DNA of 64,000 nt, taken from positions 186,001-250,000 of the forward strand of contig NZ_SDMK01000004.1 in NCBI RefSeq assembly GCF_004123295.1, written 5' to 3'. Shown in pieces: positions 50,776 to 64,000 of the stretch. The stretch comes from Silvibacterium dinghuense. GTDB lineage: Bacteria; Acidobacteriota; Terriglobia; Terriglobales; Acidobacteriaceae. Position numbers and translations under genes: made by a program. The notes below the pieces were generated by a model that did not search any database, was not told the DNA's origin, and saw only the letters and a list, made by a program, of their open reading frames with translations. Position 1 is the stretch's first letter. Each line of letters begins with the position of its first letter.

Positions 50776-50952
50776 AGAAAACCAACTTTTGTTGTCTAAA
50801 AATCAGATGTCGAAAATCGCCAAAAGATGCACGGCCATCGGTTGACGAGGTCCGTCAACCACGCTGTGGCATAAGTTTTCGCAGACATGCGCACGCGTCT
50901 CCAAACCGCCATCCACTCTGCCATGTCCGTCGGCTGTTGTCGCTGCCGCTAG

Positions 50953-51154
50953 GGTGTATCCCCATAGAGCGATCGTAAAAGGCTGTCCTTTCGACCGGAG
51001 CAGGACAGTTTCATCGTCCTGCGGAGTGGAGAAACCTGCAGTTTTCTCCGGTACCGGCAAAAACGCAGGTCCCTCCACTGCGCTGCGCTCCGGTCGGGAT
51101 GACAACCATATGGGTAAGTCCTTTAGTTTCATACCAGCTATACGGGGATACCGC
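50953..51154. mobile_element. 202-bp MITE-like element with terminal inverted repeats and CTAG flanks
   Basis: Left end GGTGTATCCCCATAGAG, right end (reverse complement) GCGGTATCCCCGTATAG, CTAG on both sides (50949-50952 and 51155-51158). The interior has GACCGGAGCAGGACAGTTTC and an inverted CTCCGGTCGGGATGAC, so it can fold into a long hairpin. No coding sequence. Confidence 0.7.
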
Positions 51155-51165
51155 CTAGAAAACAC

Positions 51166-59174: not shown

Positions 59175-61076
<1,902 letters not shown>

Positions 61077-61097
61077 CCTGATTCTCAGCAGGAAGCA

Positions 61098-61126
61098 GCG
61101 ACGCCTCCCCATCCGGGAGGCGTCGC
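61098..61126 (+). terminator. Hairpin after htpG
   Basis: GCGACGCCTCCC / GGGAGGCGTCGC with a 5-base loop, about 20 bp after the stop codon. No long T-run follows, so it is a weaker terminator than others here. Confidence 0.6.
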
Positions 61127-61296
61127 TCGTTGCGGGGGAGGAGCCTTCGATGCCGCGGGAAAAGATCCGTCTTGCCCCGGAATTCCCGCCCCCTGCCGTT
61201 CCAAAAAATGGAACACTCCCTTGCGGTCCACGGAGCCCTCTGTGTAGTTTAAAAAAATACCTGTTTGAGAGGGAGAGGATGCCTGGAGGCGAGGGG

Positions 61297-62064
61297 ATGA
61301 AGTCTGCCGATGCGTGCGCTGCCGGCAGCCTTTTCTGCAAAGCACGGAAAATACGGTTTTTCAGGTGCCTCGTCTTCGGCGCCGCCATCGCTGCATTTCT
61401 ACTCGGCACGGCCAATGCGCATGCCCGGACGCTGCATCGCCATCCGCGATTCCACGCCGTCATGCATATGCTGTTCGATACCCCGCTGCCCAGCGACGGC
61501 CTGATGCCCCTGCTGCCGGACTCTCTTCCGACCGCCGGCAAGCCCTATGAGCTGAAGCTCACCCGGCAGGAAGACGGCCAGAGCATCGACGTCGTTTACC
61601 GCATCGGCGATATCTATATTCCCCAGGCGCTGGATGCGCTGAACCGGTTTCTCCACGACACCCACAACGGCGAGGTGGCGAGCTACGATCCGCGCACCTT
61701 TGACGTGCTGCACACGATCCTCGTGGCGCTGGGCAAATCGTCGGATGCCGTAGATATTCTGTCGGCCTACCGCACGCAGCAGACGAATGACTGGCTGCGC
61801 GAGCAGGGCGGCACCAACGCCGCCGAGCACTCCCAGCACATCGTGGCCAAGGCGCTGGATATCCGCGTGCCCGGCGTCTCGGCCAATATCCTGCGCGATG
61901 CCGCGCTCTCCCTGCATGCCGGAGGCGTGGGCTACTATCCGCGCAGCCAGTTCGTGCATGTGGATGTGGGCCCGGTTCGCCAGTGGACCTATTCCCCGCA
62001 CGAGCGCTATACCCGCGGCGGCCATGACCGGCACGCCCATGCGCGCATCAGACACGCCAGCTAG
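61297..62064 (+). CDS. DUF882/M15-like putative cell-wall protease, exported
   Basis: The ATG at 61297 follows GGAGGCGAGGGG. The signal sequence MKSADACAAGSLFCKARKIR...LGTANAHA precedes a domain with IYIPQALDALNRFLHDTHNG, VDILSAYRTQQTNDWLREQG, SQHIVAKALDIRVPGVSANI and SQFVHVDVGPVRQWTY. The S-x-H-x(6)-D and H-x-D pairs are the zinc ligands of the DUF882/peptidase M15 fold; many members trim peptidoglycan. 255 residues. Its TAG stop codon is inside the CTAG at the left edge of a mobile element. Confidence 0.8.
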   Translation: MKSADACAAGSLFCKARKIRFFRCLVFGAAIAAFLLGTANAHARTLHRHPRFHAVMHMLFDTPLPSDGLMPLLPDSLPTAGKPYELKLTRQEDGQSIDVVYRIGDIYIPQALDALNRFLHDTHNGEVASYDPRTFDVLHTILVALGKSSDAVDILSAYRTQQTNDWLREQGGTNAAEHSQHIVAKALDIRVPGVSANILRDAALSLHAGGVGYYPRSQFVHVDVGPVRQWTYSPHERYTRGGHDRHAHARIRHAS

Positions 62065-62112
62065 GGCGTATCCACCTATAGAGGCATCAGAAATAAAAAA
62101 CTTACCCCCGCA

Positions 62113-62215
62113 TTGTCATCCCGACCGGAGCGCAGCGAAGTGGAGGGACCTGCGGTTCTCTCTCTACACAGGCACGAAAAAGGATGCCCCATCCAAGCTC
62201 CGCTTGGGTGGGAAG
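62113..62215. repeat. GTCATCCCGACCGGAG and CCAAGC repeats inside the element
   Basis: GTCATCCCGACCGGAGCGCA...GGGACCTGCGGTTCTC, CACAGGCACGAAAAAGGATG, then CCCCATCCAAGCTCCGCTTG. The first part is inverted at 62921-62987. Confidence 0.8.
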
Positions 62216-62252
62216 CATGACGCCTTGCGAACGGGACAGGAAGTATGCTGCT

Positions 62253-62825
62253 TTACTTTCTTGAGCGGCAGGCTTCGTCCCTGCAAGCTTTTCTCAGTTG
62301 CTTAATCTTCAGACGAAGCGTTTTATCCCTGGCCGGTCCGGTTAGATTCAAAGGCGGTTTCTTGCACTCCAGAAGCTGTTTTTCTATGTGCTCGATTTCC
62401 TGCCTGCTGCCGTCGATAGGATAGTGACTTACGAACAGATTCTTATACATCCACTGCGTGAGCTTGATCTCCTCATGGTCAGGGAATCGATAGTTCGTGC
62501 AGGCGTGGCGATCTGTTTGCGGCCCTCTCGGTATCGCATGTAAGGAGAGCTCTTCCTGCAATAGCGCTCCAAGGGTTCTGCGCGGAGACGAGGTCCCGCT
62601 GTGCTCAGCGGTGAAATGATTGCGCCGGCCAGCGGCATCCGCAGTCATGCCTATGTAAAGGAGACCTTGTTCGGTTGGTATAGAGATACTTCCTTGTCCT
62701 GCCTGCACGGTCAGTACATCTCGCGTCACAAGGAAGACCGCATAGATGCCCGGTGGAACTTCGTTTAGCTGAACTGGATCGAGGCGTTTCAAAGCAAGCG
62801 CTTCATATATTTCTTCATATTGCAT
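62253..62825 (-). CDS. GIY-YIG nuclease-like protein (probable separate gene within the mobile element)
   Basis: 190 residues from the ATG at 62825, which has its own site GGAGAATCC eight bases upstream. GIY motif PPGIYAVFL (G26-I27-Y28), YIG motif LLYIGMTAD (Y57-I58-G59), Arg in GRRNHF (R67/R68), Glu in EHIEKQLLE (E148) and Asn in PPLNL (N160) match the catalytic set of GIY-YIG nucleases. A basic C-terminal tail (LRLKIKQLRKACRDEACRSR) could bind DNA. The same frame also continues the upstream MarR-GNAT gene, so the protein may exist alone, fused, or both. It is the only cargo of the element. Confidence 0.7.
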   Translation of the reverse strand: MQYEEIYEALALKRLDPVQLNEVPPGIYAVFLVTRDVLTVQAGQGSISIPTEQGLLYIGMTADAAGRRNHFTAEHSGTSSPRRTLGALLQEELSLHAIPRGPQTDRHACTNYRFPDHEEIKLTQWMYKNLFVSHYPIDGSRQEIEHIEKQLLECKKPPLNLTGPARDKTLRLKIKQLRKACRDEACRSRK

Positions 62826-63953
62826 CGCGGATTCTCCGGGACTAGTTTGGCGTCCTCGGTAGTGCAATGCTTTTCTTCTTTCGTGCGAAGACCTGGCCAT
62901 AGAAAGCTCGTTCCTCCCACCCTTTTGTGCCTGTGTAGAGAGAACCGCAGGTCCCTCCACTCCGCTGTGCTCCGGTCGGGATGACAGGTCTCTGCTTGAG
63001 CTATAGGTGGATACACCCTGGGGCAGGTTCTGCGCGCGGTCAAGCTCCAGCGTCCAGACCTGTCCAACCAGGTCTTTTCCAAAAGAGTGGTGACGGTTTT
63101 CTTCCGAGAGCGTGAAGCCTGCCGCCACATAAATCTTCCGCGCCGAACTCAGCACGTCGTTGGTCCAAAGCACGAGCCTTCGATATCCCAGCTCACGCGC
63201 CCGTTCCACGCACATGCGCACCAGGCGCGATCCCACGCCCAGGCCTCTGGCCACCGGATCGACATAAAGCAGCCTCAGCTTCGCGACCTCGTCCTGCTCC
63301 GTCTTCATGAGGAACACCGAGCCGACCACTTCTCCGTTCAGCTCTGCCACCCAGGCATCTTCACGCGAAGCATCGAAGTTCGCGGCAAAATCGCCAAGAA
63401 TCCGGCTGACCAGCCCCTCGTAGGTCCAGTCCCATCCATACTCCTGCTCATAGAGAACCGCCTGCCGATGCGTGATCCAGCCCAGGTCCCCGACGCGCAG
63501 CCCGCGAAACTGCACGTCCGCCGCTGCTGCCGGCTTCCCCTCCAGCACATTCCGGACCTCCCGCATGCCCTCTGCCAGGCGCTTCCGGCGCTCCACCGTG
63601 AGCGGAGCAAGCAGCGTTTCGATCTGCGATTCCGTTCCGTCGTTCAACTGCCTGAAGGCTTTCTTTCCCGCGGCCGTAAGCGACAGCAGCTTGTGCCTGC
63701 CATGCTCCGGACTGATCCGGAACTTCAGCAATCCCGCCTCCCGGAAGCGCGCGACAATGCGGCTCACATGCGCCTTGTCCATGCCAAGATTGCGCAGGAT
63801 ATCGGCCGCCGTCCGTTCTCCGGGCTGCGCCAGCTCATAAAGAACCCGGGCCTCCGCAAGCGAAAAGCGGCTCTGCGGCAGATGCTCCGCCAATAACCCG
63901 ATCTCCCGGGTGTAAAACCGGTTGAAACTCCGCACCTGATCGACAAGCAACAT
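62253..63953 (-). CDS. MarR-type HTH / GNAT acetyltransferase fused in frame to a GIY-YIG domain
   Basis: The frame starts at 63953 (GGGAGAGGTGCCC upstream) with a MarR domain (RFSLAEARVLYELAQPGERT, DKAHVSRIVARFREAGLL) and a GNAT domain (GSVFLMKTEQDEVAKLRLLY, GLGVGSRLVRMCVERARELG). This is the usual two-domain regulator/acetyltransferase of about 311 residues, ending near RAQNLP. The frame then continues through CAG at 63018-63020, repeat-encoded residues (SSSRDLSSRPEHSGVEGP) and the GIY-YIG protein, 566 residues in all. Changing that CAG to TAG restores a normal end, so the fusion is probably a stop-codon loss at a mobile-element edge. Confidence 0.75.
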   Translation of the reverse strand: MLLVDQVRSFNRFYTREIGLLAEHLPQSRFSLAEARVLYELAQPGERTAADILRNLGMDKAHVSRIVARFREAGLLKFRISPEHGRHKLLSLTAAGKKAFRQLNDGTESQIETLLAPLTVERRKRLAEGMREVRNVLEGKPAAAADVQFRGLRVGDLGWITHRQAVLYEQEYGWDWTYEGLVSRILGDFAANFDASREDAWVAELNGEVVGSVFLMKTEQDEVAKLRLLYVDPVARGLGVGSRLVRMCVERARELGYRRLVLWTNDVLSSARKIYVAAGFTLSEENRHHSFGKDLVGQVWTLELDRAQNLPQGVSTYSSSRDLSSRPEHSGVEGPAVLSTQAQKGGRNELSMARSSHERRKALHYRGRQTSPGESAMQYEEIYEALALKRLDPVQLNEVPPGIYAVFLVTRDVLTVQAGQGSISIPTEQGLLYIGMTADAAGRRNHFTAEHSGTSSPRRTLGALLQEELSLHAIPRGPQTDRHACTNYRFPDHEEIKLTQWMYKNLFVSHYPIDGSRQEIEHIEKQLLECKKPPLNLTGPARDKTLRLKIKQLRKACRDEACRSRK

Positions 63954-64000
63954 GGGCACCTCTCCCTTCAATGTTGTCACAGACAACATATAAAAGAAAG

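Follow-up and report, generated by a model that had tools for sequence, protein, structure and literature searches.

What has happened at positions 62062–63020 of a 64,000 nt stretch of Silvibacterium dinghuense DNA (contig NZ_SDMK01000004.1, positions 186,001–250,000; hereafter the window), where a minus-strand frame of 578 amino acids (aa), at 62253–63989, runs uninterrupted from a MarR-GNAT gene into a gene for a GIY-YIG nuclease-like protein? The frame could encode a fusion protein, or mobile DNA could have entered the stop codon of the first gene, in which case the kind of mobile DNA has to be established. The comparisons reported here indicate that the locus very probably holds a miniature inverted-repeat transposable element (MITE) of the type of the IS5/IS427 insertion sequences (ISs), with the GIY-YIG gene as a passenger between arms resembling repetitive extragenic palindromic (REP) sequences, and that it was moved in trans if it moved at all; this leaves aside when the gene came aboard.

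Boundaries of the element and its junctions with two convergent genes

The element lies between a DUF882 gene and the MarR-GNAT gene, which converge on it. The features at its borders are:

62064..63018, no strand: the element, 955 bp, GG...CC; very probably an IS5/IS427-type MITE that has a gene as cargo and so the structure of a mobile insertion cassette
62062–62081, plus strand: left end, TA included, TAGGGCGTATCCACCTATAG
63001–63020, minus strand: right end, TA included, CAGGGTGTATCCACCTATAG
62064..62081, plus strand: left terminal inverted repeat, 18 bp, GGGCGTATCCACCTATAG
63001..63018, minus strand: right terminal inverted repeat, 18 bp, GGGTGTATCCACCTATAG
62061..62064, plus strand: left target flank CTAG, with the likely duplicated target TA at 62062–62063 and the DUF882 stop TAG at 62062–62064
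61150..62064, plus strand: DUF882/Peptidase_M15_2 gene, its TAG stop kept at the left junction; the true start may be downstream of 61150
63018..63989, minus strand: MarR-GNAT gene, probable ancestral extent, now open into the element
63018..63020, minus strand: lost MarR-GNAT stop, now CAG, presumably once TAG

A previous sequence-only reading had described inverted ends flanked by CTAG and CTGG, and both are present. Its sizes of 953 bp for the segment and 17 bp for the ends are amended to 955 and 18 bp, respectively, with a further inverted repeat of ~65 bp inside the ends; together with both flanking TAs, the segment measures 959 bp. A 14-bp core of the ends has three matches in the window (≤2 mismatches) against 0.02 expected, and two of the three are the ends of this element. 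An Rfam search of positions 61000–64000, up to E=1, gave no match.

At the left junction, the TAG inside the CTAG is, as that reading had proposed, the in-frame stop of the DUF882 open reading frame (ORF; 61150–62064), and its G (62064) is also the first base of the element. The right flank is CTGG (63017–63020), whose TG (63019–63020) would correspond to the right copy of the target TA, mutated, so that the presumed target duplication around the element at 62064–63018 reads TA on the left and TG on the right. Across this junction the minus-strand frame reads ...CTG CCC CAG GGT..., with CAG in the register of the lost stop. A TAG at 63018–63020 would end MarR-GNAT at 311 residues, counting from the second ATG, just as had been predicted for a right flank CTAG, and the six closest orthologues (71–79% identical in the aligned part) all stop within about five codons of this position. 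None of the six runs on into a GIY-YIG domain; from their stop positions the MarR-GNAT/GIY-YIG fusion is, as far as seen, not ancestral, and its conservation across genera, named beforehand as an observation that would tell against an insertion, did not appear in these six. The element thus occupies a CTAG that would have served the stops of both convergent genes. An empty site predicted for related genomes was not encountered, given that DUF882 adjoins MarR-GNAT in none of 29 relatives' loci scanned with flanks of up to 1.5 kb, which are part of 45 such places outside the genome of S. dinghuense.

A family of elements with shared ends

The ends are abundant in this genome. The pattern TAGGNNGTATCCACNTATAG retrieved, at ≤3 mismatches, 67 + 61 = 128 matches in 5.1 Mb, whereas the reversed pattern used as a control retrieved 4 + 6 = 10. 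We then examined 78 segments (251,745 bases), fetched among the end matches listed and the loci with DNA similarity and chosen for holding such ends or repeats; they contain 132 end matches at ≤4 mismatches, in comparison with 0–2 in each of 10 first-order Markov resamplings. These ends form at least 47 convergent pairs, a count that pairs whose second end has >4 mismatches escape. Including the TAs, 44 pairs measure 109–313 bp and the rest 472, 807 and 959 bp, the longest being the element studied here. Many short copies without transposase and with the same ends are what defines a MITE family, and this is what the genome contains. The GIY-YIG gene is present in a single copy in the genome, aboard 1 of the 47 pairs. 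The earlier opinion, of an unusual lone GIY-YIG gene in a REP-like element, does not hold, since the ends belong to IS5/IS427-type insertion sequences and to a large MITE family. A second pair lies in the window itself:

50950..51157 (G000:C4:236950-237157), no strand: pair of family ends, 208 bp, too short to contain the passenger gene

Of 200 Acidobacteriaceae genomes surveyed, 20 (that of S. dinghuense among them) contain one or more such ends at ≤1 mismatch; among the other eight genomes of the genus, one has a single end at ≤2 mismatches. A version of the ends with the sequence GTATCGAC is abundant in genome G559 (23 + 21 matches) and occurs also in G601 (6 + 7).

Partner insertion sequences

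Within the 578-aa frame that covers the passenger gene there is no match to a transposase; other overlapping ORFs (69–172 aa) were outside that search. Transposase sequence is nevertheless found between the same ends elsewhere. The 807-bp pair (C2:640600-641406) contains a decayed IS5-family transposase, with an internal stop and its frames split, and no other place in the genome matches DUF4096 (E up to 0.001). Additionally, in 38 loci from relatives, similar ends bound five long pairs of 766, 836, 835, 835 and 835 bp, and four of these five hold IS5-family transposase sequence, the fifth (L194) being outside the reading; the same loci contain ten pairs of 126–268 bp, five of them with the REP-like core. 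Insertion sequences of 835 bp with these ends and two intact-looking ORFs occur in two relatives (L201 in G601 and L209 in G593), while the copies from G015 appear shifted (L149) or shortened (L154). The two ORFs of L201 (2278–1901 and 1832–1500; 835 bp) match PF13340 and PF01609, as well as NF033580, with the second ORF slightly below the cut-off of the latter. The family has, then, a partner insertion sequence, with DUF4096 plus a DDE transposase in two ORFs and a size of about 830–865 bp. In aligned stretches, the transposases from relatives are 44–83% identical to each other, and the decayed copy is 46–64% identical to them.

IS427-group elements captured in Paracoccus are described as 832–865 bp long with ends of 13–21 bp; their target repeats are mostly of 2 bp, with one of 4 bp, and in some of them two ORFs overlap and a frameshift motif is present (PMC3281130). 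We assign the partner to the IS427 type of the IS5 family on the basis of its size, ORF layout and repeat length rather than of an ISfinder search. We also considered an IS630-type origin, first suspected from the CTAG target, and rejected it: there is no DDE_3 transposase in the genome, with E up to 0.001.

Two loci show family ends in close contact. The decayed IS427-type copy (L156, G000:C2:640582-641406) adjoins another family end, both using a single CTAG, and two family ends likewise share one CTAG at C2:269579-269616.

Inner arms of the element

Inside the terminal repeats, the passenger gene is enclosed by two arms:

62114..62213, plus strand: left inner arm, consisting of a REP-like repeat TGTCATCCCGACCGGAGC...GGACCTGCGG and, after it, a GGATGCCCCATCCAAGC hairpin; the genome has further occurrences of both
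62915..62986, minus strand: right inner arm, a second, inverted REP-like copy that lacks the hairpin of the left arm

They contain the inner inverted repeat of ~65 bp (62114–62179 and 62923–62986), which is REP-like and common to many loci. The left arm fits the left type of the shorter siblings, with other left types fitting about equally well, and the right end fits the right type that these siblings have; C1:2181658, C3:369628, C4:328504 and C1:1844799 are shorter copies in which both of these arm types occur. This match of both arms to types of the same siblings indicates that the element is one MITE and not two. The alternative, in which two separate MITE or REP insertions came to flank a resident GIY-YIG gene, gains something from the frequency of REP-like repeats in this region. 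Nevertheless, the arms are of one left and one right type and converge as in the shorter siblings, the inferred stops of both neighbouring genes meet in one CTAG once the segment is removed, and two full MITEs should have left four ends where two are present (14-bp core, ≤2 mismatches); we regard this alternative as very unlikely.

The inner arms are nearly identical inverted copies, close to the dispersed REP-like repeats, whereas in the shorter siblings examined the two inner halves differ from each other. The right inner arm seems to have given way to a duplicate of the left one, and this points to recombination between REP-like repeats as the way in which the gene was brought in. The gene could have entered later, by such recombination, a MITE already resident at the CTAG, in which case the whole element was never mobilised as a unit. 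This in-place capture is a variant of the explanation we favour and is compatible with its core, and we consider it a serious possibility, if one short of an even chance. The near identity of the arms and the one gene copy found in the genome agree with it; no donor copy was seen, as the cargo DNA outside the arms has no match elsewhere in the genome (40 of 266 candidates scored), and nothing else speaks directly against it. That the gene was already aboard when the element inserted has, in our estimation, about even odds.

The REP-like core GTCATCCCGACCGGAGC (≤2 mismatches, both strands) also occurs in the window at positions 2985, 4668, 5128, 26898, 27852, 27942, 28028, 51087, 51226, 51257 and 53146, at least one of these copies being inside a MITE. 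Folded as DNA, the left arm is no stabler than shuffled sequences (z 0.20) despite its short hairpin. The genome contains a single match to a Y1 (RAYT-like) transposase gene (L098, G000:C1:2075683-2076006). A RAYT origin of the inner repeats was rejected, because the 3.3-kb locus of this gene, scanned 1.5 kb to each side, lacks the REP-like core.

The GIY-YIG gene

The gene carried between the arms differs in composition from its surroundings:

62253..62825, minus strand: passenger gene, GIY-YIG nuclease-like protein, 190 aa (PF20815); 51.5% G+C, against 61.9% for the window

The product matches PF20815 (GIY_YIG_2) with E=1.6e-18 and 67.5 bits (cut-off, 22.4). The residues G-I-Y (G-V-Y in both homologues), Y-I-G, R, E and N, which we take to be those of the GIY-YIG motif, are conserved across three aligned sequences, in agreement with the previous description of a nuclease-like protein with all its motif residues. 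The gene has its own ATG, with a GGAG 8 nt upstream, and its start aligns with that of its homologue; the 578-aa frame need not, therefore, be made as one protein.

Homologues are scarce. One was found among 99 other genomes searched (G014, 44% identical), and the PF20815 family occurs in 5 of 396 genomes of the phylum, including that of S. dinghuense, whereas 4 of 72,556 plasmid records contain a homologue. A pattern search of genome contigs gave 57 matches and one relative, which is G014 again, an Acidobacteriaceae metagenome-assembled genome; the same search on viral contigs gave 272 matches and no relatives, and there were none in phage records. The protein had no match in PADLOC or NCBIfam up to E=1, and a search of solved structures retrieved only two distinct sequences without meaningful scores (E of 1.3 and 8.1). 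Among the plasmids, the homologue from Ancylobacter sits between the genes for an N-6 DNA methylase and a tyrosine recombinase, and that from Paenarthrobacter is near mobC and relaxase genes. From one such neighbourhood, we can guess at an accessory nuclease role for the passenger, in restriction or defence.

It had also been considered possible that the GIY-YIG protein mobilises its own element. In such a homing-like process the nuclease would cut the empty CTAG stop site and repair would copy the element in. GIY-YIG enzymes do occur in homing elements, and the conserved motif residues and the exact placement at one short target would suit this idea; CTAG is, however, far too short as a homing site. 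Moreover, the gene is absent from the 46 other pairs bounded by these ends, and such ends enclose IS5-family transposase sequence both in this genome and in relatives. We scanned the GIY-YIG homologue loci from G014 (L040, L158 and L160), G075, G193, G219 and the Ancylobacter and Arthrobacter/Paenarthrobacter plasmids (in all, the three former plus L157, L161–L163, L191 and L192, with H4 left out), with flanks of 1.5–4 kb or less, and found no paired ends, only five single matches at 5 mismatches in total; in these loci the expectation that homologues would be bounded by such ends was not borne out. A homing element should have the nuclease in its mobile copies and at homologous cognate sites, whereas here the gene is in 1 of the 47 paired elements and paired ends are lacking at the homologue loci scanned. 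Self-mobilisation is accordingly scarcely credible here.

Target site and stop codons

A TA is found on both sides in 26 of the 47 pairs, and the site rebuilt from these is CTAG in 19 cases, CTAA in three, TTAG in two and ATAG in two. Of the seven sites other than CTAG, five differ between left and right in their outer bases, which a duplication of TA alone would produce, and the two flanks of each insertion sequence from relatives (G-TA / TA-G in L149, C-TA / TA-A in L201) have the TA alone in common. We favour, consequently, TA rather than CTAG as the duplicated target, with 4 bp possible for some copies; the reconstructed empty site is the same in both cases. The element base next to the TA is G on the left in 22 of these 26 pairs and C on the right in all 26. 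With G as its first base and C as its last, the element restores a TAG on either strand when it inserts into one.

A TAG is present at the junction in 91 of the 132 ends, and 46 of these 91 close an open frame of at least 100 codons, in contrast to 20.1% of 134 other CTAG sites and 10.3% of 1752 TAG in the same segments; these are raw counts that ignore the kinship of copies, and the control sites, unlike the ends, needed 600 bases upstream. Long open frames are likely to occur by chance in a G+C-rich genome, an effect to which the controls are also subject. For this family there is nothing exceptional in a CTAG that would have served two convergent genes as their stop.

At 34 of the 132 ends the in-register codon has ceased to be a stop, and in seven of them a frame of at least 100 codons enters the element, although three of these seven, with 4 mismatches each, are possibly spurious ends. 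The continuation in the window's element, of 255 codons, is the longest of the seven. The six other cases, several with weak end matches, are relevant for the possibility that the 578-aa frame is a selected fusion protein, in which an acetyltransferase-regulator would be tethered to a nuclease. There is indeed one open frame from MarR to GIY-YIG, and expression of the nuclease gene may rely on transcription from MarR-GNAT, since there is no promoter-like match within 62000–63100. Yet similar frames enter other family members, the passenger has its own aligned start preceded by GGAG, and the fusion is unseen in the six orthologues examined; we consider a selected fusion unlikely.

Discussion

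The results are best accommodated by an IS5/IS427-type MITE with a passenger gene. An IS427-type transposase, probably acting in trans, would have cut at the GG..CC ends and joined them to the TA inside a CTAG/YTAR sequence, with duplication of the TA. Entry into the CTAG common to the stops of the convergent DUF882 and MarR-GNAT genes would have rebuilt the TAG, leaving both genes with their stops, and a 4-bp duplication of CTAG would have the same effect. Insertion probably came first and loss of the stop afterwards: a later change of the right TA to TG would have turned the MarR-GNAT stop from TAG to CAG, so that the frame would now run through the element end into GIY-YIG. The gene itself, we guess, was captured by recombination between REP-like arms, and it would be an ordinary passenger whose translation begins at its own start codon.

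Several observations weigh against this explanation. No intact duplication remains at 62064–63018, because the right TA is mutated, and two of the seven sites other than CTAG have CTAA on both sides, which fits a duplication of 4 bp better than one of TA. The sole DUF4096-type transposase found in the genome is broken, making present mobility doubtful, although an intact one could be missed with an assembly in nine contigs and other IS5 subtypes outside the search. Likewise, the searches revealed neither a second copy of the cargo-bearing form in the genome nor an empty site in a different one, so that the mobility of this form is conjectural.

A limited literature search found no published description of the element, and the term "GIY_YIG_2" gave no literature match. 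Mobile insertion cassettes (MICs, or mobile insertion cassette elements, MICEs) and MITEs are reported to be both non-autonomous derivatives of insertion sequences that are told apart by the presence of coding sequence (PMC5444012). The window's element has two of the features of a MIC, the IS-type terminal inverted repeats and the passenger gene without transposase, as does the qnrS2 cassette from the Aeromonas plasmid pAC3; it differs from it in its host, of the Acidobacteriaceae, its IS5/IS427-type ends, its GIY-YIG cargo and its dozens of short sister MITEs. The IS427 group of the IS5 family is close through the 835-bp partners from relatives, which have similar ends, a two-ORF transposase and a TA target, whereas the element itself lacks a transposase. 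The many short copies with common ends recall the RUP and Correia MITEs, and a 107-bp Correia form is reported to be fused to reading frames (PMC2229807); the copy studied here, in contrast, is 955 bp long with a complete gene, and its family is enriched on stop codons that insertion preserves. As in REP and BIME sequences, the inner arms are repeats found at many loci, but here they are nested inside transposon ends. In its structure, the element adds a new case to an established class of mobile DNA, the mobile insertion cassettes.

Its interest lies in the insertion that preserves stops and in the read-through into a passenger gene. In the Acidobacteriaceae, a MITE family can be compared directly with its parent insertion sequences and with a derivative that carries cargo, and the use of a TA target inside CTAG by elements that start with G keeps the TAG, which would explain why such elements are found on stop codons. 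Through decay of the stop, host and passenger genes can become fused. It is conceivable, although we are inclined to doubt it, that the family uses TAG as a safe harbour and that repeated stop decay adds C-terminal tails to host proteins, acting as a generator of gene fusions. If true, the family would spread through gene ends without damage, and at this locus a whole nuclease domain would have been added as a tail.

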